Source: Sipunculus nudus (lineage: Eukaryota; Annelida; Sipuncula; Golfingiida; Sipunculidae). From it: a stretch of 64,000 nt of DNA. The stretch covers positions 53,655,386-53,719,385 of the forward strand of contig CM049322.1 in NCBI GenBank assembly GCA_026874595.1. Reading direction: 5' to 3'. The notes beneath the pieces are model-generated. The model did no database searches. It saw only the letters and a list, made by a program, of their open reading frames with translations, and had not been told where the DNA came from. The translations under genes and the position numbers were made by a program. How positions within the stretch are numbered: the first letter of the stretch is position 1; each line of letters opens with the position of its first letter. Shown here piece after piece: positions 31,361-64,000 of the stretch.

Positions 31361-31369
31361 ATAACTTTT

Positions 31370-31386
31370 TTGACCTTGACCTTTGG
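31370..31386 (-). promoter_or_regulatory. ERR/nuclear-receptor-like element in the former ETFB upstream region
   Basis: TTGACCTTGACCTTTGG read on the minus strand is CCAAAGGTCAAGGTCAA. It contains the estrogen-related-receptor half-site TCAAGGTCA and an overlapping AGGTCA. Removing the transposon and one target copy would put it about 30 bp before the ETFB start codon. ERR control of mitochondrial oxidation genes is known in vertebrates. Function here is inference, and related motifs also occur in repeats at 43.6-44.4 kb. Confidence 0.4.
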
Positions 31387-31397
31387 TTTGGCCGAGT

Positions 31398-31406
31398 GAC
31401 AGAAGA
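31398..31406. repeat. left 9-bp target-site duplication of the MULE (GACAGAAGA)
   Basis: GACAGAAGA directly abuts the left terminal inverted repeat and is repeated exactly at 50706-50714 beyond the right one. Nine bases is the classic duplication length of Mutator/MULE transposons. Confidence 0.95.
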
Positions 31407-31449
31407 GCTCGTGGCAGTTTACTGCCCTCAAGTGGGTCCTTAGGACACC
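31407..31449 (+). repeat. left terminal inverted repeat of the MULE
   Basis: It begins GCTCGTGGCAGTTTACTGCC and ends GGTCCTTAGGACACC. It matches the reverse complement of 50663-50705 with one difference at position 35, the centre of the odd palindrome GTCCTTAGGAC. It contains two palindromic modules, GGCAGT-TT-ACTGCC and GTCCT-T-AGGAC. Confidence 0.95.
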
Positions 31450-31597
31450 GCGGAACTATATTGTTAGTCGGAATGTTATAACAAATGGTTGAACGTTCTA
31501 GCAGGTTGACCCTGCTCATAAACTGTTATAGGTGTTACTGGGTGACATCTGGTCAGCATGGTAAACATAATTATTATTTAATTTAAACAATATAAAA

Positions 31598-32570
31598 GAA
31601 GAGAGGTAACGCGATTTACATAGAACGCCATATATATTCATTAATTACTGAATGATATGTTTTAAAACTAAAAAATAAGCAGTGTGCAAGTCCACAAATT
31701 TAAAACTGGCGTCTCCCTGTCTGCCAAAATAGCGCCATGCTGTCTGGGATTATATTTTTACTCCAAGCCGTTAGGCCAAACAAACACAGAGTTGTTTAAT
31801 GTAATCACCGTTCCTGTTCTACGTAATGTTCTTGCTTGCATACGAGGCACAGTAAATATGTAATTCGGCTGATATAATGGAAATTATGTCTATTTTAATA
31901 TATACACCATAAGCGGCGAGACGAAATATTCATGGTGTGTGTGTGTGTGTGGGGGGGGGGATAGTAGAAATACATGCACATGTTTATACACACACATGTA
32001 CTTATGTGGTTGAAAACTTGATATGGAGTAGTCTATTACTGTTCTATACTGGAGAAAATAATTAACTTTACCGAGAAATACTGGTACTATATGCATGTTT
32101 ACCATTATATTATGGGGGGGGGGGGGGGTGCTCAGTTTCAGCGCTTGTTCACACACACTTCACTATTCCACTATTATAAACTAAAGTGCATCTGAGACCC
32201 CTAGTCACATATTATAAACCAAGGTGTGTCTGTGAGACCCCTATTCCAATGTATATATAGAGAGTGAAAGCCTGGTCTTATTTATATTAAATTGGAAGGT
32301 GCATCTGTGAAACACCCAGTCAGCATTTTCAATATATTAATTTTATGTTTAAAAAAAGAGGTAGAGATTTTACATAGAAACTCACGTGCATGCATACGAC
32401 TTGATTACTGAATGTGATGGTGAAAACATTAAATATCAGCAGTGTGGAGGTCCACAATTATATAACTGGCGTCTCTCCGTCTGTTATAATAGCGACAAGC
32501 TGATTGGGGGTTATATTGTAATAACAGCCATCAGGCAACACAAACAAAATAAGTAGTTAAATGGAATTAA
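31598..32570 (+). repeat. two diverged direct repeats (about 205 bp) in the left subterminal region of the MULE
   Basis: Segments at about 31598-31805 and 32356-32570 share ordered blocks: AGAGGTA, TTTACATAGAA, GATTACTGAATG, GCAGTGTG followed by GTCCACAA, and ACTGGCGTCTC with CGTCTG/TGTCTG. Between them, GTGCATCTGTGAGACCCC-type phrases recur at about 32186, 32222 and 32298. Subterminal repeats of this kind may be transposase-binding or promoter DNA. No equivalent is seen at the right end. Confidence 0.6.
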
Positions 32571-32574
32571 TTTT

Positions 32575-32857
32575 TTTTTTAATTTTTGCATATTGAGGAA
32601 AAGGACATCTTTTTCTTATTCCTCGAATGAAGTGCCTAATGGGTAAGATACTGATGTTAATGTTAGGTTTATAAAATATTTAAAACCATTATATAAATAA
32701 ATATTTAATACCATACATAATAACCTGTACATATATATATTTATGTAAAAATACATATATTATAAGAATGGGAAAGATAATAATGGTAAGGTTATAAAAC
32801 ATTTTAATAACATAATATATAAATATTTATCATACATTAGAAATAAATTCACACATA

Positions 32858-32897
<40 letters not shown>

Positions 32898-33948
32898 GTA
32901 TTTAATATGAAAGAAATATTTAATAATAAGATTGTAGAATATATTTTACAAGTGTATATTATAACATATTTTTAAAAAAATTTTTTATTTGATATAATAA
33001 GTGTATACATTGTAACAATAAAATGAATTTATATTGACAAAAAAAAGCACATAAGCACATACATACATGTACAATTAACTATAATAAAATATTGAGATTG
33101 ATATATTAATACTAGAAAAATTTGAAAAATATTTTAAAATATAATATATCAAATATATATAATTAAAAGGAAATTGCGGTTATGGTAAATATGCCAATCG
33201 AAATATACTATAATAATACATAAGATCATGTATAATAATAAATAAGATATTAAACTGGAAAATACAGTACATTATAAATAAAATGAAACCTATGAATATA
33301 TACATATATATGTGTGTGAAATACTAAATTTGTGCATTCTATAATATGACTCTTTTTTATTTAATGAAACAGGTTGTACAGTGTTAAAATAATATTTTTT
33401 ATAAACTGAACAAGAAAAAAAAATAAGTACTTCTAAACATGAAGATATATAATGTAAAAAATGTTATACTTAGATATATAAGATAAATTAGAAAATATAT
33501 AACAGATACATTACATATACATATATATTTATATAAATGTAAATGAAATTGTGGAAGTTATAAATGTGCAGAATAATATAGGTAATACATAAAATATATA
33601 ATAAAAATATAAAAATAAACAATGTACATTATAAAGACAAATGATGAAACCTATGAATAAAAAAAAATATTTATTTATATATACATAAATATATAAATTT
33701 ATTAAATATATATTGTGCAATTCTAAATTTACACACCATATAATAAAATGTACATTCAATAACAAATCAGTTAAATATTTGTTATTTTAAGAAAATAGTT
33801 GTAAAGTGTTAAAATGATAATTTATATAAAAATAAATCACAATACACACTTCCAAACATGTACATAAACATTTAATGTAAAATTATATGCAATACTGACA
33901 TATACAAGATACATGAAAAATATGACACATATATAACATTTAATGTAT

Positions 33949-33994
<46 letters not shown>

Positions 33995-34110
33995 GAGTAT
34001 CTTAATTATAAATATGCATTTTTTAAATATATAATATAAAAATAAAATATAAAAAGTAAATGTACATAATAGAACAAGTTAAACATTTATATAGGTTTTT
34101 TATATAAAAA
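32575..34110. other. very AT-rich leader of the MULE with simple repeats
   Basis: It holds (TAA)n at about 32867-32895, (TA)n at 33952-33990, and many ATATAT, AATAAT and AAATAT runs. Poly-G runs sit further left, at 31951-31960 and 32114-32128. No coding exon is recognised before 34115, so a 5' untranslated exon of the transposase gene could be hidden here. Confidence 0.6.
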
Positions 34111-34114
34111 TGTA

Positions 34115-37100
34115 ATGAATTTTAACATCCATGATAGATATGTTTTATTAAACTTATCTTTAAAGGACAGTGAAGAAGACGACAGTGCAATAATACAGTA
34201 TGTACAGTCAAATGAAAAGAAAGGGAGGAACGCAAATGTTGTGACAACATATGAAGTGTTAAGGTAAGGTTTCATGCAAACATAAAATTATTTGTGTAAA
34301 AAATTATTACTTAAAATATAAGTTGTGCATGTTATTTATATACTATGATGTTTTTGTATATAGGTTACATGCTCTGTTTCTTTTTATAGGTAAATAATTA
34401 TTAACATATACCAGTATAATGCATGATCTATTCTATCCAAAGCAAAAATTTTTTATTGAGACCTGTGTGATTAAAATGCAGTTTCAATTAAATAAATGTT
34501 AGAACAGTTAAGAAAACCAAGCATTTATCATTTTTCTTACTGCTGAAAATACATCCCATAAGTATGCTATTGTGCATTTTACAGCTGAGGTTTATGTTAA
34601 ATTTAAGCTATCATTAAAACATTTAATGAAATTTCAATAGGCATTTCCATGTTGAAAAATCTTAATTATACATAAATAACATATATGTGACCATCACTAA
34701 CCATCCTTATTAACTGTCTGTATTTATATTTAAGACTGCAAAGTCAAGATGAGTTCATGGCAGATGTACTGAAAAGAGAAGCTGCATCTGGAAAATTCTG
34801 CTGCAGAGTAAATAAGAAAAACACAACTATGTTCTACTGTGAAAGGTAAGTAGCTGAACACTTTTTAACATGGAACCTCAATAAAAGTGTTTATAATTTA
34901 TATGTGAAACTTTTTATCAAACACATGTTGGGGATGCCATGCCCGCCCCCCCCCCCCCACTTCCCCCCCCCCCCCCCCCACCCTCCCCCACCCACCCCTT
35001 TTTTTTCACACTTTAAAGGGTTTGGATGAAATGTTATGGCCTAGATCATCCTTTTTCTGGACCATGAGATTTTTTTAAGTTTTGTCATCAACCCTTTATT
35101 GAGTTGGACCCCCCTTTTGATAGATCAGGGATCTGCCCCTGTATAGGAACCCATCTCTTTTGTCCACCTTCTGATTTGGATGAGGATGCACATGAGAGTT
35201 TGTCCTGCAAATGAGAATCATTCCACTGTGTCAGGTTACATGAATAGGTAACTTTTGTTTGAAGTAATACTCATCTTTACAACTGTACAACTGTGTTAAA
35301 ACCTTGATTACATTGTATACATAACTTCACAGATTTAACCTTGTGTGCAAAAATGAAAAATATAAAGTTAAAATTAATTAAGCATAAAAAATTAAAAATT
35401 ATTTCACCATCCTTTTAACAGCTTAATTCATTGTACTCTTCCTGAGTAATAAGTATGTTAATATTAAGTAAAAAATTGGACATTTGCCGTTCATTTTAGT
35501 CTGTTCTTGTAATGAACAAATATTTTCCAGACATTCCAAATCCCGTAGAAAAGGTGATGCAGACCCCACAAAAACAAGAGCCAATGGGTGTGCAGCATAT
35601 ATATCGTTCAGTTTCAAACACATTGAAACAAGGAATATATATGTTGCAATAATAAGAAAAATGGCTGTTCACAATGGACATGATCCTTGTAACCAGAGAG
35701 AAAAGCGAGTCAACAGAATTGATCAACATTTGGTCAATTATATCGAGTGCCTTACTGAACAGGTAACAAGAAAAACTGAGCTAACCAAAATGTGGAATAT
35801 TGCTACTAGTTAAGCATTATAAACATGCATTATAGACAACTATATTAAAAAACAAGGGAACCATGGGTCATGACTTCAGCTGACCAAGAAGGCATTCAAA
35901 AATGAATCTAATCATCTGAATATCAAATTTGGTAATAGCCATTTACAGTTCTTGTATTCTATGTAATTTAAAGGAAATTTTGGTAATTGTAAATATGCTA
36001 ATTGAAATAAATAATAATACATAAAATTATATATAATAATAAATAAGATATTAAACTGGAAAAAATAGTAGTTTATAAGTAAAAATGAAACCATTATGTC
36101 CCCAGTATATAAAATTTGTATGCCTACAATGTTCCTACTGCTTTTGTACATATTGACAGATATGTACTTTTAGTAAACTAATCTTTGTTACATATGTTTA
36201 TCTACATTAAACGTAAGCTCTCATAAAGAATATATGAAATTTAAGATTTTGGTTTACAGTATACCCAAACCCATCACCTATCACTGGTAACAGCAGATAT
36301 GCTAAGCACAGTGAATTATTTTTCAGGGAAAGAAGTGTATGGAAATCCTTGTGTTGTGCAGTGGGTGGGCTTTGGCCAGGAACTACAATGATGTCAATGA
36401 CAGGCAATTCTACCCAACTCCTCAGGATGTAAAATATATAATGGAAACTGTCAAAGCTCGGAAGAGGTAAATAATTTTATAAACAAAATGATAAAGTTTT
36501 TGAGATGATGAGAAATCTTTTTAAGATAGACAATATAAAATCAATCACAACCGAGGTATGCATTAGAGCAATAACTGACCTAAATTTGAATTAGATAAAA
36601 TATAGGATATTTATTGCATGGAAACAAACCTGACGGAAAGACAGGAGGACAGACAGACAAGCCCAAATCAATATCCCCCGTTCAGAGGAAGTGGGGGACA
36701 ATATATTTACTTATATAGAGTATGAATTATATTATTTTCCTCTGGTGTTACCCAAAAATTGAGTCTTAAATTACTGTATAGTGTTACTGCTTTGTGAAAA
36801 AAAGTGTACTTTATTAAGTATGGACCTACTTCAAAAACAAATTTATGTGTTACTGTACATATAAATGTTTACCATATTTTTGTTGAAAGAGTACACAGAG
36901 ATGATGCCATGGCCGTGGACTACCTTTGCACTGAAACTCTGAAAGACAGCATTGTACTTTACCAGCCAATGACAAAGTAAGTTTATCATTTTCATTTTAC
37001 TTACACACTTCCTAACACACTTACCACAGGACTCTTCCATTATTTATAGTTTGTCAAATTTAGAGGTAACTTGTTTATAAATAGAATAACTTATAAACGT

Positions 37101-40100
37101 TATAAATGCAGATAAAGTGTAAGAGGAAGAGGTAATAAAGGCTATGGTTGGTTTATATGATTGGTTTGTATTGATGAGCAATATAATTTTGCAAATAATA
37201 TTTTGTGACCTGACCATGTGTTTCCTAATGTTGAAACTGAAGCATGTGAGCAGTTTGTGAATAAATGATATGTACTATTACCATGATCATTAGTTGGCTT
37301 TTGGATTAACTGTTGACATTTCAGTAGTTTACACATTTGTTCAATTGAATATATTTTTGTATAATATATATTATAAAATATATATGTATTTTTTGGTGAA
37401 ATATATACAGTTGAAATATAACTAATTCACAACATTAAACAGGGCAAACAAAGCCTGATCTCAAATTCTGCTGAGTCCGGAAAATAATGAACAAATGTTT
37501 GTATTAAATCCTAATTTAATCACATCAATTTTTTTTAAATTTAAGTTTATATTTCTATACATTTCCAATATAACATATATATCTGAATATAAAAATTGAT
37601 TCTAATTCTCAATTGCATCATCATAAATCTCAATCTGGTCAGATAACACCACATCATGCATACGAATGTTTTTATTTTTTACCACAAACATATATCTTTA
37701 AAATCTGCAAAACAATAAATATAAAAAAATAATACACAATTTTTAATTATGTCTTTATTTATCCATAATGTGCTTCATATTTTATAAATTAAAGCATACT
37801 GAAGGGTTCAATTATATTTTTTAAAATCACTTAAAAGAAAATTAATTTCTTTAAAAATGCTACATTACACAACATTGCCTCTTCTGCATTACACCTTGAA
37901 TTACTTGAATTACAAGGAAAGTTTTATATCAGAGTGGAAACAGCATTACAATTAAGGAGATACAGTGAAAGTAATAACACTTAACTGAATTTTTGGCATG
38001 TATATAGGAAATATATAAGAGAATATTTAGGGTGAATATTAAGAAAACAAGATAACTGTTTTTTATATTAGGCAGTTCTGAAGTGTAATAATAGGTTTTT
38101 AATGGAATTTTGAGGTTATTCCTAAATATCTTGTAGGAAACGAAGTTATATTGAACAAGTATTCTGTATGGTAGGATAATTTTATGTCATAATAAGAATG
38201 TGGCATGATAATGAAAGGTGCAATATAAGAGTTTTAAAATAATATAATCCACACCTGCTTACAACCAAGTTGTTTTATTTTAGTGAACAGCCTCTGGTAA
38301 TTGTTTACCAAAATAGAAAACAAATGGACCGCATGGGCAAATATGGCAAAAACATGGTATTCTTGGATGCCAGCTATAAAGGTGTAGTATTAAACAATTT
38401 ATTCTTAGCATATCTGATGTTAATCTTTGACTGAATTTAATACATTTATATAAATACCATTAAACAAAAAACGATTTAAAAATTATATTTTCCCTGGTAA
38501 AAAATTTCTTTATAAAGTAGAAGTGTTATATTAAATTTGAAATGTTACAGAAAATAAAACGCATATTTTTGATAGCTATGGAAAGTGAAGTTTTCCCCTT
38601 TTTATGACTGCAAGTGCAAAGAAAATTATGATCCAATCGGACCCAAATATATTAATATTATTTTAAATAAACATTTGTTTCATATATGACTAAATTGTTA
38701 AAAAATCTACTTAAATAAGTATTTATATTTATATATTTTAAATTATTATTACTGACAGGTTTAACTGCTTACGGATATGCAGTATACTGCTTACAAGCAA
38801 GGGATTCTCGTGGCCATGGAACACCACTAGCCTTTTTTGTAATATCAAGTGACACCACCGAGATCATCACTTTGTGCCTTAGATCATTGCGGGACAATGC
38901 TGTCAAGAGAAGTGTGGTTTTTGAACCAAGGTTAGTCAAACAATGTTTTCTTTAATTATATGCTGGCCTCTATTTGTGTGTTTATAAGAAAAATAAAGTA
39001 ATCTGTGCTAGCGATTAAGCTTTGTCCATCCATTAATATGACAAAAATTAAAATGCAAATGATTTAATTAAGGAGACTTTTCAAGTACCTACCTGGATTT
39101 AAAGTTAGAAGATTCCAGGCAATATATATGATAAATTAATTCATTTTGACAATCTGATGTTTTCATGCAGGGCTGTCATGGTGGACAAGGACGCTAAAGA
39201 GATAGCAGCAATAAAGAATGTGTTTCCACACACAGTAATTCTCTTGTGTTGGTTCCATGTCCTGCAGGTGAATATTTATATGTATATATAGCACACAAAA
39301 AATTGTTTTGCGAAAAAATGCTATTTTTATTGTACTTGTATGTTTTTATATTATTTATTATGTAATTACATGCAGGGCTTTCAAGAATGCCGAATCTTCA
39401 AATTTTCTTTTTAATGAAATCCATGAACATGTGTATGTGGGTGGCATAAGTTAATTCTATTCATTTATTTTCAGACAACCAGTGCAGTCAAATGCCTTTT
39501 ATGTAGATTGTTTGGACAGAGGCATTTTTTTATTATAATTTTTTATGTTATGTTTTTTATTCATTGGGTATATTAACTTAATAATATGCAATGTTACACA
39601 CCTTTCATGTAATGTAAATTATTGTTAAAATTTTTATATAATTTTATATAATGATAACTCCTGCACAGCTCCATTGAAAGGTTACAAATTTACAGATAAA
39701 TTAAGATTTTTGTATAATTCAGGCTATATATAGATGGTTGAACCAGAGGGATTCTGGAGTTTCTGGGGCCACAAATGCACCAATTCGGAAGTCCATCATA
39801 CAAACACTGAGAAACATGAAGTATTCCACCACAGTAAGAACACAAAATTGATTATGTAATAAACATAAAAGGTATGGTCGGCTTTGTCAACTTTCAGTCA
39901 ACAACAGTTTTGTGGCCTAATTATGCAGCCTTCTACATTTGTTCTGTTAACAATAATTATACAACCACACAAAGTGACCTCATTTACAACCATACTGTGT
40001 AAATAAAAGCTAATCAAGAACTGATATGTCCAGGGTCAACTATTAACTGTGAGTGTGATAAAAGGTGGACACTTAACTGGCACATAAACAGTATGTGAAG

Positions 40101-41131
40101 CAGATTTTATGTATAGTAAAATATCATTAAATTTGTTCTGTGTAATGTTTTTAATATTAACTTAAAGTTCCTGAGGTACATAATGGTAAAATATAAACAG
40201 TGATATCCTCTTTCTTGTTACATGTAGGAAGAAGATTTTATGGCAAAAGCTGGTCACTTACCTGAACTATGGCAGAAGTACCCAGCAGTACTGAACTACA
40301 TCAAAGGGAACTGGATTGGGCAGGGTGCCATGTGGGCCAATTATGGTAGAAGATTCTTTCACGAGGACCACGAAACCAACAATCTGGTAGAAAGGTGAAT
40401 TGCTTTATCAAGGCCTTTTAGAATCATAATACTTTTCATTACATGGAAATCTTAAGCATTATGCTGTACTGTTTATATCTAAATTTATTTTTTAACTTTT
40501 ACTACTTATTAAGAAACTTGGAAAATCCAGGAGCTATTTAAAGAAATGCAATTTTTTTAAAGGTAAGAGAGAACACATTTTTATATCAAAATATCAACCA
40601 ATCAATGTCTTAATTAAGCATATTTGGAAATTGACCATAAAAATCCTTAGTCTGACAAATGCTTTAAAGATCTCAGACTTATATAACACCTCTAGTGATG
40701 CAAAATAAGTTCATGATACTAAATGATTTTGTATACTCTGATATATATATAGCTGTCATAAGATAATTCTGTCCTCTCTGAGATACCTTAGGTTTTGTTC
40801 CATTTCATTCAAGGTTCTTCCTTACCCTAAAATACAACTTCTTGGGAGGATACAGTAACAGACGAGTCGACGAACTTCTTCTTTTACTTGATGGGGATGT
40901 GTCACAGTATCATGAGTATGTTTTTCCTAAATTCAAAATGAATTATTAAAACGAATAATAAGAACACCTTCCTTCATACAACTTCAATAATCTTTTATGA
41001 TGCATGCTTTCTTTCCATGAAAATATACATTAAATGTTATGTTCAAGTCCGAAGAGACTTTAATTATTTTGTTTAAATCAATAATTTATAGTAATTAATC
41101 ACTTAATATTCAATGGAACAGAACTTAAATC

Positions 41132-41193
<62 letters not shown>

Positions 41194-44100
41194 TTAAAAA
41201 AAAACATGTGTTTAGCTACCTGGATGAACTCGAAAAGGTTGGACGCCTGGAATCCAACCGGGTAACAGAGAAGGGGAAACTACAGGCAGAAAAGCTGCTG
41301 CTCCAGGGATGGGCCCAGAAATGTCTCTGGATAGACGATTCTCAGTGCCTGTGCCAGGTCCCTTCACAAACCATCCCCGACTCATATCTGGATGTGGACC
41401 TGGTACGAGCTACTTGCACCTGCAAAACCGCATCACAAGAAGGTAAAATAATAATTATAAAAAAAACTAGATATTTCTTGGCACCGCAGGTGCCAGAGTA
41501 TCCCCAGACATAATACGACCCCCTCTTTAAGAATAGGCCCCCATTTTTAGCTCAGCTGACTGTAAGTCATCTGAGCTATAGCAATCACTCTTTGTCCATC
41601 GTCCATCCGGCCATCAGGCCGTCTGTCTGTTAACAAGGATGTAGTTATCTGTCAACAGGGTTCAAAATGTAACGACTGGACCTAGAATCTTCCTTCTTGA
41701 CACAAAGGGTGACCCATGAAAAGTCTCCAGGGAAACCTGAAATTAGGTCTCTGTTACCTGACTTATAAATGTTAACTAGAAATGATGAACGAGAACAAAA
41801 ATTGCTGGATTAAGGGAATAAAAATTGTGTTAGATAAATATAATATGATTAATTTTTTCAGACATCCAGAATATTTTAATGCAAATCTGCTGAGAGAAAA
41901 ATTACAAGCCGAAAACATTACAGTGTGGAAAAATAATATGTGGCAGGATAATGGAAATGGAGGAGGAAATAAACTGAGAACTTACAGGGAATTCAAAACA
42001 GAATTTAAATTTGAGAGATATTTAGAAATATTCAATAATAGAGAACAGAGAAGTAAATTTACACAATTAAGAATTAGTGCACATGAACTTAATATTGAAA
42101 AGGGTAGATATATCAGACCAAACATTCCATCAGAACATAGAATTTGTACAAAATGTAATGAAGACATAGTAGAAGATGAATACCATTTGTTTAAATGTAA
42201 TTATTATGAAGACATAAGGGAAAGATTTGAAATTAGTATATGTAACAGAAATGAGTTTATAGATAAAATGATAGCCAATATTGATGAAAGTAATACTGGT
42301 ATTACAAAATTTGTATACTATGCACTAAAAAAGAGAAAACATGGGAATAACTCATATAATACACAAAACTAAAATTATTAGTAAATAGAACCAAAATGAA
42401 ATTTAGCCAATACAGAATTACTGTCACAAAATCTAAAATGTAAATATGTTATATTCTAAACAAAGAGTTGAAAGATAGAGGTCAGTTCTTTACTTTTAAA
42501 TTCCGTCCACATATATACAGATATCTGTATGTATAAGCATAAAGATATGGGTTAATGTCGATTTGTATATATTTATATACGTGTATATATATATATATGT
42601 GTACTGTAGTATGTGCATGTGTATATATATATACGTGTATATATGTGTGTATGCACATGCATGTGTGTGCATATATATGTATATATATATTTATATATAT
42701 ATATATATATATATTTATTCACTAAGGTTTAGTGATACATGTTTAATAGATCTTTTATATGGTTTAATTATAGCACAATTAGTTTGCACCCATATCCTTT
42801 GAGCTGTGGCACTCCAAAGTACAGCTCAGAATAATGGAAAATTTGATACAAAAGCTGAAGTATCTGAACAACTTATGCGGAGATCACCATAATTGTTTGT
42901 ATGGATATTGATCATGAGATGTTTCATCAGTTTCTGCAGACTGGTGGCACCACATGTATTTGTTCGGGCTTTTTTTCGAATTTTTTTCTCTATTTTTGAG
43001 ACCTAAAGATAGGAACATCTGTTAACATGGCACAAATCATAACAACTGGACCTAGAATCTTCATTCTTTACACACAGGGAGACCCATAAAATCCATGGAA
43101 ACCTGAAATTAGGTCTCTGTTACCCATATCCATTAAGCTGTATGGCTCCAAAATCCCCCCCCCCCCAAATAATGAAAATTTGATACAAAAACTCCAGTAT
43201 CTGAGTAACTACAACACTGATGCTCATGAATTTTGGCATACATATTGATCATGACATGTTCCATCAGTTTCAGCAGAACAAGTTATCCAGAGCCCACCAT
43301 GCTTCTTTATTATATGGATATTGACCATTAAGTGTTTTTATTAGTTTCTGCAGACTGGTGGAGCCACCTGTATTTTTTTTAAAGTTTACACACTTTTTCT
43401 CTATTTTTGAGATATATTAATACATACACAATCTAAGTTTGTTGGTTAATCTGTTTGATGCTTCATTTGAAAGGTTATATACTACCATTCAGATGATAAA
43501 ATTTCCTTTTGCAAATCTCTTCCCAGTCAGCTTAGCGTCATGACCCTTGTTAGCAGCATATACTGACACTTGGCAAGCAATTATTGTTTCTTCCATCTAT
43601 CAATCCACAATCTTTTTGAAGATGTTGGTCCTGTGACCTTGACCTTTGACCTCATGACCCCGAAATCAATTGGGGTCTTGCTTTTTCAATGGGACATATA
43701 TAAGTCAAGTTTGAAATCTATACATCAATAAAAGCAGGAATTATCATCCAGAAACTAATTTTTTGACAGATGGCTCCTGTGGCCTTGACCTTTGACCCCA
43801 AAATTGATATTGATTATCCACTTTTATATATATATCAATAGAGGTCTAGATTTATTGATGGGTCATATATAAGTCAGGTTTGAAATCCATATCTTAATCC
43901 AAGCTTGAATTATTATATCAGGAACTAATTTTTGGACAGATGGCTCCTGTGACCTTCACCTTTGACCTTGTGACATCAAAATTGATAGGGGTCTTCCTCT
44001 ATTGGCAGATGAAATATATGTGCAAGATGAAAGGTCTGAGATGAAATGTTTGGCTGAAAATGCATCCACAATCTTTTTAAAGATGTGTCTTGTGACCTTG

Positions 44101-45472
44101 ACCTTTGACCTCATGATCCCAAAATCAATTGGAGTATTGCTTATTCAATGGGTCATATATAAGTCAAGTTTGAAATCTATACATTAATAAAAGCAGGAAT
44201 TATCATCCAGAAACTAATTTTTTGACAGATGGCTCATGTGGCCTTGACCTTTGACCTTGCGGCCCCAAAATTGATATGGATCATCCACTATTGGCAAGTG
44301 AGCTATATATTCAAGATGGAAGACCTGGGATGAAAGTTTGGCTTAAAATGCACCCACAGTGTCTTTTAAGATGCAAGTCCAGTAACCTTGACCTTTGACC
44401 TCATGACCCTAGAACCTATAGGGTTCTTACTTTAGTGGTTGGCCATACATAAGTCACGTTTGAAATCCATATGACTATCAACACTGGAGATTTCATAAGA
44501 GATGTGTGATTTTCACCAAATATGGACACATTAAAGGTCAAGGCCACTCTCATGGTAAAGGTCATGACCCAAATGTAAATAGACCATCTCTCTACATGTG
44601 CGTAATATGAAAGAAATCTGTCCATTAGTTTTGAACATGAGAGATTAAGTGCCCATCCTGATCACATACCCCTCCCTGATCACATACTCACATTTTATGA
44701 GTGGACATTCTAGCTATAAATATTGACAAATGTGATCACTACACAAGTTTTATTATATATGTATATAAATAATACCATTACATGTTTTTATATCTCTGCA
44801 GGAATGTGCAAGCACGTTCATGTAGCTCTTAACGTGGCCAGTATGAGGAATATCAATGTTGAATTGGCAAGAGCTGCAGCTGCTCAGAAGCTTGTTGATG
44901 GGAATAATTTTCAAATTGATGGAAAAGATGTAATGGTATTTGATAACAACAATATTTCCACTGTTATAAAAGGTGAAGTATGCACATGTGTGGCAGCTTC
45001 ACATGGATTACAATGTGTATGTAAACAAGTCTGTGACATGGTTAAGGCATATGAAATGTCAGTTTTACCTGAGCCAGGCTCATCTGGTGATGACAGTGAG
45101 GATGTGGACATTTCACATGAAGTGACACCTATCTCAAAAGTCCAAATCGCCAAGCAACAGGTTAATGAGATTTTAACATTTCTTGAAAGTGAAAATTTTG
45201 TTCCAGAAGACAATCTTGATACAATGCAAAATATCCAAAAGTTGCACAGTGAAATATTCAAGAAGAAATTCAAAAGAATCAGTATGAAAAGAAAGATTGG
45301 TGTTAATTCTAAAACCAGACAGGCAATAGAAAATGCCAAAAGAAAGAGAAAACCCCTTGATCATTGTTACATCCCCAATTCATATTGCAAAAAGCATTCT
45401 CAAAAAAATTTGGATGGAAGTCTTAAGAAGTATTCCTGTAGCAAGGGGAGCCAGAGAAGTACTTTCTTGTAA
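34115..45472 (+). CDS. MULE transposase with FAR1/WRKY-GCM1-like N-terminus and SWIM zinc finger, 13 exons
   Basis: Exons are 34115-34263, 34735-34845, 35531-35762, 36327-36466, 36890-36976, 38284-38381, 38759-38930, 39171-39267, 39723-39833, 40228-40394, 40814-40915, 41216-41442 and 44802-45472, giving 787 residues with GT-AG junctions all in frame. An N-terminal Cys/His set (C85, C107, H134, H137) resembles FAR1/WRKY-GCM1 DNA-binding fingers. The MULE catalytic core follows: D268 (FLDASYKG), D335 (VMVDKD), C356-x2-H359 (LCWFHV) and E454 (TNNLVERFFLTLK). A SWIM finger C556-x-C558-x8-C567-x-H569 is split by the 3.4-kb last intron. A second motif with the same spacing, C625-C627-C636-C638, has Cys for His. 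Basic segments near the C-terminus (such as KRKRK 744-748) suggest nuclear import. It should cut and join transposon ends. The start is uncertain: an acceptor at 34165 could instead begin this exon at 34166, in frame. Confidence 0.88.
34945..34992. repeat. poly-C tract in a transposase intron
   Basis: Runs of C are broken by single A, T or G bases in intron 2 of the transposase. This kind of tract is prone to assembly or sequencing error. Confidence 0.9.
41137..41191. repeat. (TA)n microsatellite just upstream of transposase exon 12
   Basis: A TA tract of about 55 bp ends 24 bp before the exon at 41216. Confidence 0.95.
41759..42787 (+). mobile_element. 5'-truncated non-LTR retrotransposon fragment nested in the repeat
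   Basis: The roughly 1.03-kb insertion carries the 196-codon open frame at 41782-42372 and a TA/TG-rich tail (42560-42715). Its boundaries are set by the interruption of the 340-bp-unit repeat. Only 1-3 bases of shared sequence are seen at the junction, so no clear target duplication remains. Confidence 0.6.
41782..42372 (+). pseudogene. C-terminal part of a LINE-type reverse transcriptase protein
   Basis: The 196-residue frame ends with a Cys/His cluster, C122-x2-C125-x9-H135-x3-C139, in the context [20 protein letters not shown]. That is the usual end of many invertebrate non-LTR retrotransposon ORF2 proteins (zf-RVT-like). No polymerase or endonuclease domain is present, so this is a dead fragment. 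It lies on the sense strand of the last transposase intron and is flanked by non-coding repeat. It is not an exon of the transposase, because the SWIM finger is completed only by joining 41442 to 44802. Confidence 0.65.
43600..44640 (+). repeat. diverged tandem repeat with GACCTTGACCTTTGACCT cores in the last transposase intron
   Basis: About six copies of TGACCTTGACCTTTGACCTC or close variants lie near 43635, 43775, 43950, 44095, 44235 and 44385, roughly every 150 bp. Flanking phrases such as CAATGGGWCATATATAAGTC and TTTTTGACAGATGGCTC repeat too. Each core contains TGACCTTTGACCT, the complement of a DR1 nuclear-receptor element. A 61-codon frame at 44002-44187 is part of the repeat. Confidence 0.75.
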
Positions 45473-46027
45473 CTGAAATTGTGTATTTCAAGTTTATTCA
45501 TGGTAACTAGCAGCCAAAATTACAAGTTCCTAAGCAATTTCTGTAAAGATTTCAAGAAAGGTTGCTATTTAGTATTAAGGTATGGAATATACTCCTGTCA
45601 TGCAGAGATAATCATAAATGTTTGCATACACTACTCTTACTGACAACGAAGGTTTAGGATGACTAATCTTACATACTTCATGTCTTAGCATACCCAGATA
45701 AGCTATAACGATTAAACACGTGTGTTATTCCGAGGGTTAAATTTGATCTTTAACCCTCAACTGCCTTAGCATTGATCTCACATACTCGGCCATATTGGCC
45801 CGAAATTTACCAACTTGAAAACATGAAATAAGCTTTGACAACTTTTTTACAAAATGAAGTTTATACATTTATCTTTACAAGAACTATAAATGACAATATA
45901 ATGCTAGCTAATTTCAAATCTTGCAACATATTTTGTATATATGGTAATTGTCATGAATAACACAACAACCATACCTGTTTTATTTCATATTTATTCAAAC
46001 AAATCAACATCCATCATCTAAGTTAGT
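45473..46027. terminator. intergenic 3' ends of the two convergent MULE genes, with central hairpin
   Basis: A perfect 10-bp stem, GAGGGTTAAA / TTTAACCCTC (45732-45741 and 45749-45758, 7-nt loop), sits almost midway between the two stop codons (260 and 270 bp). Possible polyadenylation signals are ATTAAA at 45711 for the plus gene and two AATAAA on the minus strand (plus positions 45979-45984 and 45990-45995). Confidence 0.5.
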
Positions 46028-46177
46028 TTAAATATTATTATGGATCACAGTTTTAATGATTTCTTTCACAGATTTTATAATTTCGACCCCCCCATGAGTG
46101 ATTTGGTCCATAGGCGAATGCTTCTCTATAGCTTCAACTGCACTGTCGATCAGTTTGCTGTAATAAATAGAATAATG

Positions 46178-46219
<42 letters not shown>

Positions 46220-49200
46220 TATATATATATAATGGCAGTAAATTATCCCACCAGTGCCAGATTAATGCAACTGGAGGCATGTGCTGGGCAAGCTAGTCTT
46301 CATTTAATAACTTTTATTTACAAATATCTGTATGATAAATATTGCTAAATTTAAGCATACGTGAAGCATGATCATTGGATATTATTCTTCATGTATTAAC
46401 TTTTTTTAGAGCTATTTTGATAAAAAAAATTAGCGGCATATTTTCAGTACTGTTGGCTTTCCAATGTACATAAAACTCATATCTATTATCAGTATGTGTT
46501 GTTGTCCATTATGACAGTTGTCAATAGATAATGAATGGTAAGCTATGTATATATTATAGATGTCATAATAGTTAATCTGATGTATGACATGTTTTTTGAT
46601 AACATTTTCATGATATGTAATACAGCATGTGATGGAAAATACAACTTTCAGAATTTGATATGCAGTGGAGTTCTAGGTCCTGAAAGGTTCATTCTTATGA
46701 CTATCAGTAGTGTTTATTAAAAAATTTGTCTACAACATGTCTACCAAAACAGATGGTAGTAATTGCAGCTAAAATTTAGTTTTTGTATGTTTAGCATCTG
46801 ATATTACAATTTCTCAACTACACTTGAATATAATTTTAGATGCACCTGAAATGCAATTTTGATATCTTCAAGTTAACTTTTCATCTGTTGTTGTTACAAT
46901 ACAAGATGTATAAAGTATATTATTCTTAAATTTAAAGGTGATTTATTATGCATGTTTAGATGCATTGGTTTTGACTTATGCCTTCTGTATTATGTTCATA
47001 ACATTATGAATTGTAAGTAATAAAATTAATATCATATGCTTACACTGTCTTCTCAATGTTCAGTTTTTTCTCAACTTGACTTTCCCCAGGCACATCAAGA
47101 GGCACCTTGGGCACAACCTTGGTGCATGTATGGGTCAGAGACTGTGCTAGTCCCTTTACATCGGCTGAAATATTTTAAGTTACATATACTGTAAGTTTTT
47201 TAATTTTTATTTGTTTTAAATTATTTGTTAATCAAGTTACCTGGTCACATTCATGACTTTACCAGCAAATGTTGTGTTCTATATGTGCACTATTTAGAGA
47301 AGTATTTATTTATTTATACAAACAAATAAGTGCCACATATTAATCATAAATGACACTTGTGACATAAATGACATGAAACTTGCATTTTATTTTTAAATTC
47401 TTTATTTATCCAAATCATTATATATTCATAAACAACCATTTATTAAACCTGCACACCTGGATGAAGCTTTGAGAAGAAGGTAAGGCCATCATTAGACACA
47501 TCTCCTGTCTGCCCCTCCACAGCCAGCTGGTACAGCTTCTGTAGGTCCTTCATGTGTGGACTGCTATGTCCTATTCTGAGGGCCTCTGACAGTGCCAGAA
47601 ATGACATATGCTCAGGAGGCCCTACCCACTGGCATATCATTTCCCCAGACACTGCCAGCTGAGGCACTGGGGTCCTCCTACTTCTGCGAGGAGCAAGTCT
47701 AGACTCCACATGAGTCACACCTAGATGTTGAATAATTTTATATTTAATATCCATGGTAAAAGTGTATCAGCAAGGTGTAGTTTGAAATTCTGCAAAATAT
47801 GCTAAAAAAGTGAAGACATCAGGGAAAATGATACAATTGTAATGGGATTCAGGGGGTATATAAATTTTTATCAACAGAGACAATTTAATTTTCAATAAAC
47901 CATTCAGAAAATATTATTTATACATCAGAAAAACAATATATTATAAATATGAATGATATATAGACTTTGGTTCAATTTCTGCCATATGGACAAGAATTAA
48001 CAGATGGGATATGAATAATTATAAATAACTTCAGCCTTGCTTCTATTTTATACATACCATTTTTAAAGGGGCTGGTAATATCAAACCATGCAGTCCATAT
48101 AGTTTCCTCTAGGAACGCCTGTTTTCACTTATTTTACCAGGAAAGTGGTCAGATATATTACTATACTGATATGAAAATGATGCCTTACATATGTCTTTTC
48201 TGACCAATTTATTAAAAAGTTCAAGGGTTAATGTTTAATTCATAAAAATTATGTACAATATAAAAATAGGTTCCTTCGAGTAAAATGAAATTATATTGAT
48301 TTGCATACATCAAATATAGGATATATCATAACATATAACATAACATATGAACTAGGATGTACAAACGATATAATCTTAATATATTTCATGGTGCTTACTT
48401 TGTATATATAACTTTTATGTAGGTAATGATCAAGACAACTGTATACCTAACTTACATGCTGGGATGAAACTTGTAAAAAGAGCTAATATTTTACCATTAT
48501 ATGTATTTTATCATTATATATATCATTATATTCACACACACCATTAAACACCACCCTTGAAGATAAACTGATGCAATATACCTACATTCTACTTTTTTCA
48601 GCTGCTCCACTGTCTCAGTTTTAACAGCATCTGGGGCAATTTCTGTAAATTTACAAACAATGATTACATAATTGGAAATAATATAATTTAAATTACTAAA
48701 AATATATATATATATATATATATAGATGATACTTTGAAATAATGGTTACATAAGTCATTAATATATACTTAAAATACAGAGTTTATGTATTTAGTTTAAT
48801 TTATTAATTAAATACATGTATATACAAAACAACTCTTATAATACAAATTATTATATTGAATGTGATATCAATCAATTATTATTTTAAATCAAAACATTAT
48901 GTGTTACTCTCTTGCTTTCACCAGTAATGCTTGCAGATGTAAACTTACTTCCACATTTTTGCTTCTTGTGCTCATTGTGAGAGCCTGGTGGACACTCTGA
49001 CTCATTTGGACCTTAATTTGCAACAACAGAATAAATTTTTCACTTACATTTGTAACAATATTACTTATGATATAAAAAAATAAACAAAAAAAAAAATAAA
49101 TATAATTTTCAAAAATATTTATTGTAAATCTTAGTAGTTATAGTAAATTTACTGTAAAATATAAATAAAATACTGCAGTAAATGATAGAACAAGAAAATA

Positions 49201-49550
49201 TATTTATAGCTTCTAAACACACTTGCGGTTATGATGCTCTTATTGGATATGCTCATTTATTACAATATATGAGATATGTCACGTTATCTTGTATAAATGA
49301 TGAACCTGCCTTACATTTCAAAATATTCAAATCATTTCTTCAAAACATCAAGAAATGATTATATAGCAAATCAATCATTCAGCCCATTTCATAATTTAAA
49401 ATATATTTACCATTTATATTGTTATTTATTTCATTAATTTTAAACATATATTGAAGCAAGTTATAGTTTGACTATAATAAATTAATTATACATACCAGTA
49501 CCTGGACCCTTCCTTTTTTCACCTTGTTGCTGGATCTTGTGTTCTTCCAT
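46028..49550 (-). CDS. second MULE gene, unknown function, six exons, 229 residues
   Basis: Reading on the minus strand, exons 49496-49550, 48949-49011, 48586-48642, 47457-47720, 47044-47164 and 46028-46157 join in frame with GT-AG junctions into 229 codons plus TAA. The first ATG has a clean upstream context. I recognise no family. Visible features are a symmetric Cys/His set C25-x4-H30-x2-H33-x4-C38 that could bind a metal, a basic patch RLAPRRSRR at 66-74 that could be a nuclear signal or bind nucleic acid, a mainly helical middle and a helix-rich C-terminal tail. It is convergent with the transposase and ends 555 bp from it, so it is probably an accessory transposition protein by position only. 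Six independent in-phase splices make it a real gene rather than chance. Confidence 0.75.
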
Positions 49551-49982
49551 ATTTGACTACATTTAAATTAATATTAATATTTATTATCATAAGTTATATC
49601 CTAGGCCCCATTTTTAAATTTAAATTACTTATATATAATGGTAACCTATCTTGTATAATTTTATAAAATGTCAAATAATATATCTTTTACCATAATAAAT
49701 ATAATAATACATGTATAACCTTTAAATCACTTAAGAAAAATATTTTAATATTTGTTATTTATTTATTTTAAATTTATATTATACATCAATTCACATTATT
49801 TACTAAAATTTCTGTATATAGATCAGTATATTAAAGATATACATTAACATATCAGTTTTCAATATGTTTATAAGTATTACTCTTAAATATACATGTATCT
49901 TAAACTTATTTAATTAAATAATTATATATATATATATTTAACAAATAACACCTGCTGAATAAATTTAATGTAATTAATATTT

Positions 49983-50020
<38 letters not shown>

Positions 50021-50662
50021 TATACATATATATATATTCAAAAAATTAATTGCCAATTTTGTTCACAAAAGTCAATTTTAATTCAACACTTACAACAGTC
50101 AACATAACATTTCAAACATCATTTATATATAAATTATAATATTTTTAATATTTATATATAGGCCTATATATACATTTATAATACAAGTTTAAAATTATTC
50201 CATGCATATAAATGTGCAGGACATAGTATCATTTATGTTATGTAATATATAACACATGTATATAAATATTTTACATGTGCATTCAATAATTTTATCCACC
50301 AGACAGTTTGGCGCCTACTAACCTGGTAAACAGACACACAGACGCTTGTTTTAAATTTAGACTTGTTAACAACTTTCATCATATATTTTACTGAAGTGTA
50401 TTTCATAAGGTTATTTTGCATATATATATTTATAGTTATTGTAATCAGACTCTGTTATAAATAACCATTTTATAAGGCAATTGTTTTCATGATTATTGTT
50501 GTACATTTATATGCACTTGTTTTTTATTTTTTTTAAATGTAATCATTATAAAAGATTGTCCAGTCTACACATGCGTCAACAGAAATGTCGCCATTAATAC
50601 CCAAAATGCTTTGCGCGACTTCACAAAAGCTTACGCGTAAGTAGTCCGACCGTCACTTGACT
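49551..50662. other. right subterminal region of the MULE
   Basis: AT-rich DNA with (TA)n at 49985-50019. The last 100 bp before the right inverted repeat are GC-richer (TTGCGCGACTTCAC, TTACGCGTAAG). This should hold the promoter of the minus-strand gene and, after the insertion, may drive ETFB. There is no gene in it. Confidence 0.45.
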
Positions 50663-50705
50663 GGTGTCCTTAGGACCCACTTGAGGGCAGTAAACTGCCA
50701 CGAGC
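50663..50705 (-). repeat. right terminal inverted repeat of the MULE
   Basis: It is the reverse complement of 31407-31449, ending CAGTAAACTGCCACGAGC, with one mismatch. It is followed immediately by the target duplication. Confidence 0.95.
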
Positions 50706-50714
50706 GACAGAAGA
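50706..50714. repeat. right 9-bp target-site duplication of the MULE (GACAGAAGA)
   Basis: An exact copy of 31398-31406. It lies 12 bp upstream of the ETFB start codon at 50727. Confidence 0.95.
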
Positions 50715-50726
50715 CGCAAACGAATC

Positions 50727-64000
<13,274 letters not shown>

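Follow-up and report, generated by a model that had tools for sequence, protein, structure and literature searches.

The window, the whole 64-kb stretch of DNA that we analyzed (G000:C17:53655386-53719385, in a 1.43-Gb assembly of 153 contigs), holds a 19.3-kb Mutator-like element (MULE) with two convergent genes, inserted directly upstream of the gene for electron transfer flavoprotein beta (ETFB) (Table 1). The original prediction described a complete 19.3-kb MULE, and this was borne out by its ends, its target-site duplication, a spliced frame and a Pfam MULE match. The 9-bp duplication, GACAGAAGA, proved exact on both sides, and the terminal repeats (TIRs) agree at the predicted 42 of 43 positions. 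Target-site duplications of MULEs are 8-11 bp long, usually 9 bp. The sole TIR mismatch is also present between the ends of three young copies of the element (C1, C5a and C5b, see below), and it is therefore a family trait that reflects no decay since insertion and carries no age information. Rfam and tRNA scans of the 64-kb window found nothing.

Table 1. Features of the element and its right flank, in window positions.
Feature	Position	Strand	Remarks
Left target-site duplication, GACAGAAGA	31398-31406	.	exact match to 50706-50714
Left TIR, 43 bp	31407-31449	+	42/43 vs right end
Subterminal direct repeat, copy 1	31641-31786	+	146 nt, 73% identity to copy 2
Subterminal direct repeat, copy 2	32401-32546	+	760 bp from copy 1
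Transposase gene, 13 exons	34166-45472	+	770-codon open frame to stop; start codon position not found
Transposase exons 1-7	34166-34263, 34735-34845, 35531-35762, 36327-36466, 36890-36976, 38284-38381, 38759-38930	+	
Transposase exons 8-13	39171-39267, 39723-39833, 40228-40394, 40814-40915, 41216-41442, 44802-45472	+	
Transposase intron 12, 3359 bp	41443-44801	+	largely common to C1 copy
Second gene, 229 aa, six exons	46028-49550	-	ATG to stop, convergent with transposase
Second-gene exons	49550-49496, 49011-48949, 48642-48586, 47720-47457, 47164-47044, 46157-46028	-	
Right TIR, 43 bp	50663-50705	-	42/43 vs left end
Right target-site duplication, GACAGAAGA	50706-50714	.	exact match to left copy
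ETFB exon 1	50727-50780	+	start codon 12 bp past right duplication
ETFB further exons	near 55658, 61236, 62243, 63925		

The in-frame, 13-exon transposase that had been proposed holds up over 770 codons with GT-AG borders at 12 of 12 introns, and in 20000 trials the random joining of same-length non-coding segments never gave an open frame. Its translation matches the MULE family (PF10551) at 49.1 bits, against a cut-off of 27.6. By motif and position the catalytic residues are D251, D318 and E437, with a CxxH motif (CWFH) at 339-342; 66 residues separate the two aspartates and 118 the second aspartate and the glutamate. Thus the DDE and CxxH motifs named by the original prediction are present, as is CxCx8CxH (at 539), but the Pfam SWIM match of 14.1 bits falls below its cut-off of 19.6. 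A C-terminal SWIM zinc finger is common in MULEs, not universal. The only match among solved structures was to a Mutator-family transposase over the DDE region and was weak (E 0.48), and the 338-aa transposase core found no relatives in viral contigs or phage records. Intron 12 contains a stray open frame of 198 codons (41776-42372) that has no Pfam match. It also contains, at about 43600-44470, imperfect direct repeats rich in GACCTTGACCTTTGACC with copies a few hundred bp apart; Tandem Repeats Finder called no array among them, and stretches similar to them occur at the C1 and C6 loci.

Other loci in the assembly carry the same ends, as the original prediction required of a mobile element. 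A 29-bp core of the TIR, searched with up to 3 mismatches, gave 19 matches at 13 loci, and the reversed control gave 0; a locus on C4 contains one more end, which is more degenerate. Both ends are kept at six of the 13 loci: the window (19.3 kb), C1 (17.9 kb), C5a (at C5:24.3 Mb, 6.2 kb), C14 (2.2 kb), C5b (at C5:56.8 Mb, 1.7 kb) and C8 (0.68 kb). Single ends occur at the remaining seven (C2, C5c, C6, C7 twice, C9 and C13). Perfect 9-bp duplications flank three of the six two-ended copies and differ in sequence, with TGGCCAACT at C5a and GGTTAATTC at C5b beside that of the window; the C8 duplication is imperfect, and we found none flanking the C1 and C14 copies. C1 aligns with the window copy nearly throughout, apart from a gap at 40149-41383 that takes out exons 10 and 11, most of exon 12 and thereby the catalytic E; exon 13 of C1 is also short of one base. 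Among the loci fetched, where the single-ended ones were covered for roughly 20 kb or more (about 5 kb for C6), we found no second complete copy, and the window copy alone is complete; rows lying wholly inside 43590-44650, in repeat-rich intron 12, were set aside in this comparison of loci. A search of the assembly with the joined flanks for an empty site matched only the two window flanks.

Distances between copies, computed from aligned pieces of at least 150 bp with each stretch counted once, separate an old layer of the family from a young one. K2P distance to the window copy is 0.0073 for C5a, 0.0079 for C1 and 0.0113 for C5b, all three of which are internally deleted and 0.7-1.1% divergent, while substitution distances are 0.038 for C8, 0.054 for C13, 0.063 for C9 and 0.067 for C14. 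The low divergence of the three young copies supports recent activity of the family, in line with the recency that had been proposed. The element that made them need not be the one in the window: the window copy might be a dead or silenced relic that looks intact, with the source elsewhere in the population. C1 and C5a lie closer to each other (K2P 0.0034) than either does to the window copy, as such a source would predict, and our search did not identify a transposase start: exon 1 lacks an ATG, the frame reaches its first Met at residue 41, and the one upstream first-exon candidate, six codons at 32768-32785, was weak and was not accepted. Against the relic reading stand the 13 transposase exons found and six second-gene exons, all of them open with GT-AG introns, and a perfect target duplication, and we consider it unlikely. 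From its sequence, autonomy of the window copy is plausible.

More distant relatives bear on the history of the transposase. In alignment pieces, a relative on C6 has exon breaks at the same residues for introns 6, 7, 8, 9, 10 and 12, and one on C9 for introns 11 and 12; exons 11 and 12 of the C6 relative form a single aligned piece, interrupted by a small gap and a stop codon, and intron 11 was not seen there. These common breaks indicate that the intron-rich form predates the family of the window element. Uncorrected pN/pS was 0.15 against the C6 relative (126 of 770 codons aligned) and 0.12 against the C9 relative (48 codons), values that come from the better-conserved, alignable codons and from synonymous sites near saturation (0.74 and 0.80, respectively). 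The ratio was 0.48 against a copy on C3 (176 codons, one stop), 0.34 on seven changes against C1, and 1.71 against C13, a dead copy with 2 stops, from 3 synonymous and 21 other changes. Single-frame relatives of the transposase, 31-33% identical, are also present at C4:78491794 (710 codons) and C4:39287426 (656 codons), both free of stops, and at C12:38781518 (572 codons, one stop inside the match); these are either intronless MULEs or domesticated genes.

The second gene, which the original prediction did not mention, reads from ATG to stop on the opposite strand, and its five introns are all GT-AG. It matched no Pfam or NCBIfam family and nothing significant in the PDB (best E 1.2, to a parvalbumin), and an AlphaFold model of exon 4 built from three sequences was poor (pLDDT 54, pTM 0.36). 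All 229 codons align in C1 with no stop and no gap (pN/pS 0.87 on four changes, too few to be informative), and 225 codons align in C13 with 8 gapped positions (pN/pS 0.41; 14.5 synonymous and 20.5 other changes). The single comparison with C13 suggests that the gene may have been under purifying selection. A genome search with the second gene, giving 40 matches at E up to 1, found a homologue on the minus strand at C6:30842438-30842686, about 5.4 kb past the C6 transposase relative, which is on the plus strand. The pair has the same gene order and the same convergence as in the window element, so that the MuDR-type layout of a second gene convergent with the transposase is repeated on C6. Exon 4 of the homologue was 43% identical in the genome search and 38.6% identical by local alignment (E 3.6e-16 against a 3-kb stretch), with one in-frame stop; the homologue is decayed and the neighboring transposase divergent.

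The second gene might instead be a passenger, a host gene captured as in Pack-MULEs and with no role in transposition. Host-gene capture is described for MULEs (PMC6446971), and the lack of matches to protein families and structures given above would suit such an origin. Outside C17, C1, C13 and C6 there are 21 second-gene matches; 12 have stops, which suggests decayed repeats, though a match that overruns an exon end can mimic this, as it does in two rows of the window's own gene, and nine are free of stops, in keeping with capture. Among the latter, two adjoining matches at C14:47124555-47124847, 62-71% identical, may represent an intact second-gene relative outside the known copies. The homologue in the same layout on C6 makes it more likely, on the basis of one divergent locus, that the second gene is ancestral to the element than that it was captured recently, and we regard the passenger explanation as rather improbable. 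A third possibility, a domesticated host transposase-like gene of the ZSWIM or FHY3 type lying between chance repeats, or an assembly error, can draw on a Pfam ZSWIM1-3 RNaseH-like match (44.5 bits, cut-off 27.2) but is already contradicted by the multi-locus data, namely ends at 13 loci with none in the control, the same arrangement over 17.9 kb at the independent C1 locus and three differing perfect duplications, and is very improbable.

The ETFB gene, which encodes a mitochondrial enzyme, was called by tblastn with human ETFB, and 145 residues joined from its exons match the ETF domain (PF01012) at 2.7e-29. We take the host to be an animal from this similarity to the human protein, from the genome size and from the introns. 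There were three ETFB matches in the assembly, all inside the window and none elsewhere. The original prediction did not include the proximity of this gene. The insertion, 12 bp ahead of the start codon of the one ETFB gene that we detected in the assembly, provides a clear allele to genotype. Similarly, a lysine methyltransferase gene (Methyltransf_16, PF10294, 8e-16) has its ATG 257 bp downstream of the young C5a copy. Start codons thus closely follow two of the three copies with perfect duplications, those in the window and at C5a. At the third, C5b, none of the 14 flank frames of 45 aa or longer (about 0.76 kb on the left, 1 kb on the right) had a Pfam match over the cut-off. The same was true of 7 of 7 such frames flanking C1, and the flank frames given to Pfam at other copies numbered two for C14, one for C8 and one for C5a. 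In the right flank of the 0.68-kb C8 copy, an open frame with a NADAR domain (PF08719, 6.6e-16) lies about 0.7 kb away. The ETFB and methyltransferase insertions are as Mu-type targeting of 5' ends predicts, maize Mu being reported to prefer regions 5' of start codons (PMC2774946), and 41 of 60 reinsertions of Muta1 in yeast are reported to fall in genes or within 1 kb of them (PMC5225508). From three sites, which are few, a preference for 5' gene regions is a suggestion.

Two other features were seen near the insertion. TTTGACCTTGACCTTTGG lies at 31369-31386, 11-28 bp to the left of the left duplication, and resembles nuclear-receptor sites of the ERR or DR1 type. If TTTGACCTTGACCTTTGG is part of the ETFB promoter, a distance of 19 kb now separates it from the start codon. 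ETFB intron 1 has, at 50930-51100, several near-copies of TTATTGACACACGG in direct and inverted orientation; read by eye, they look like a small inverted-repeat element.

A genome-wide Pfam MULE scan returned at least 131 places (150 of 252 candidates scored), and the interval C17:53.686-53.706 Mb has no entry among the places listed, an absence that is suggestive at this coverage. The longest transposase exon encodes 223 residues and the MULE domain is split across exons 6 to 8. Two animal surveys call DNA transposons of this kind complete only when they have an ORF of more than 300 aa (PMC10294476, PMC13359780). Counts of intron-rich elements in animals may therefore be too low. Animal MULEs, those of molluscs among them, are already well known, with 39 curated MULEs reported from bivalves (PMC10294476) and arthropod MULEs from 222 species (PMC13359780); no comparable animal element appeared among the open-licence papers that our searches listed. 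The same scan also contained a MULE family with an uninterrupted 607-aa frame at 43 of the at least 131 places (for example C10:17575435-17575728); 34 of the 43 matches share a bit score of 47.6, which looks like a recent burst.

We conclude with high confidence that the window contains a complete, probably autonomous cut-and-paste MULE with a second gene that is most likely accessory. On this model, the left half of the element would be transcribed and spliced to give a DDE transposase. This enzyme would bind to the 43-bp ends, excise the element and reinsert it with a 9-bp stagger, perhaps favoring the 5' ends of genes. The convergent gene in the right half would encode a second protein, most likely an accessory transposition factor and in that role an analogue of maize MURB. 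Internal deletion would give rise to the non-autonomous derivatives of 17.9, 6.2, 2.2, 1.7 and 0.68 kb, and these shorter forms retain both ends and could be mobilized in trans. A wider reading is possible, and we offer it tentatively: the element may belong to a lineage of animal MULEs whose intron-rich transposase is inherited together with a dedicated second protein as a two-gene transposition system. Such a system, MuDR-like but of independent origin, would target promoters and would have been missed by surveys for lack of one ORF that contains the whole catalytic domain.

The MURA protein of maize MuDR has DDE and SWIM features. Like the element described here, MuDR (mudrA/mudrB) is described as having a transposase gene and a second gene that are transcribed convergently (PMC3440606), and the 9-bp duplications and 5'-end insertion preference of maize Mutator (PMC2774946) resemble what we see. 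In contrast, MuDR is given as 4.9 kb (PMC2725143), against 19.3 kb here, with TIRs of about 215 bp (PMC3440606) against TIRs of 43 bp and 13 transposase exons. The likeness of the second gene to mudrB is one of layout. The function of mudrB is stated to be unknown (PMC3440606), and the gene reportedly occurs in Zea alone (PMC2725143); the second gene makes the use of accessory proteins by animal MULEs testable, a question that mudrB leaves open.

The fungal element Mutyl also has TIRs, makes duplications of 9-10 bp and carries a second ORF, MutB, in antisense orientation; it differs in its 22-bp TIR and ascomycete host, a comparison drawn from its description (PMC6446971). Among animal MULEs, Phantom, Spectre, Ghost, MULE-Mollusca and Muta1 share the DDE MULE transposase, with duplications of 8-10 bp where given (PMC6446971), and Muta1 is reported to be an active animal MULE with duplications of 8-9 bp (PMC5225508). 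The distance of 66 residues between the first two catalytic aspartates is inside the 60-76 reported for most arthropod MULE clades, and the 118 residues from the second aspartate to the glutamate are just under their 120-135 (PMC13359780). Arthropod MULEs are described as 1.4-10 kb long with ORFs of more than 300 aa (PMC13359780), whereas the element described here spans 19.3 kb and has a split frame.
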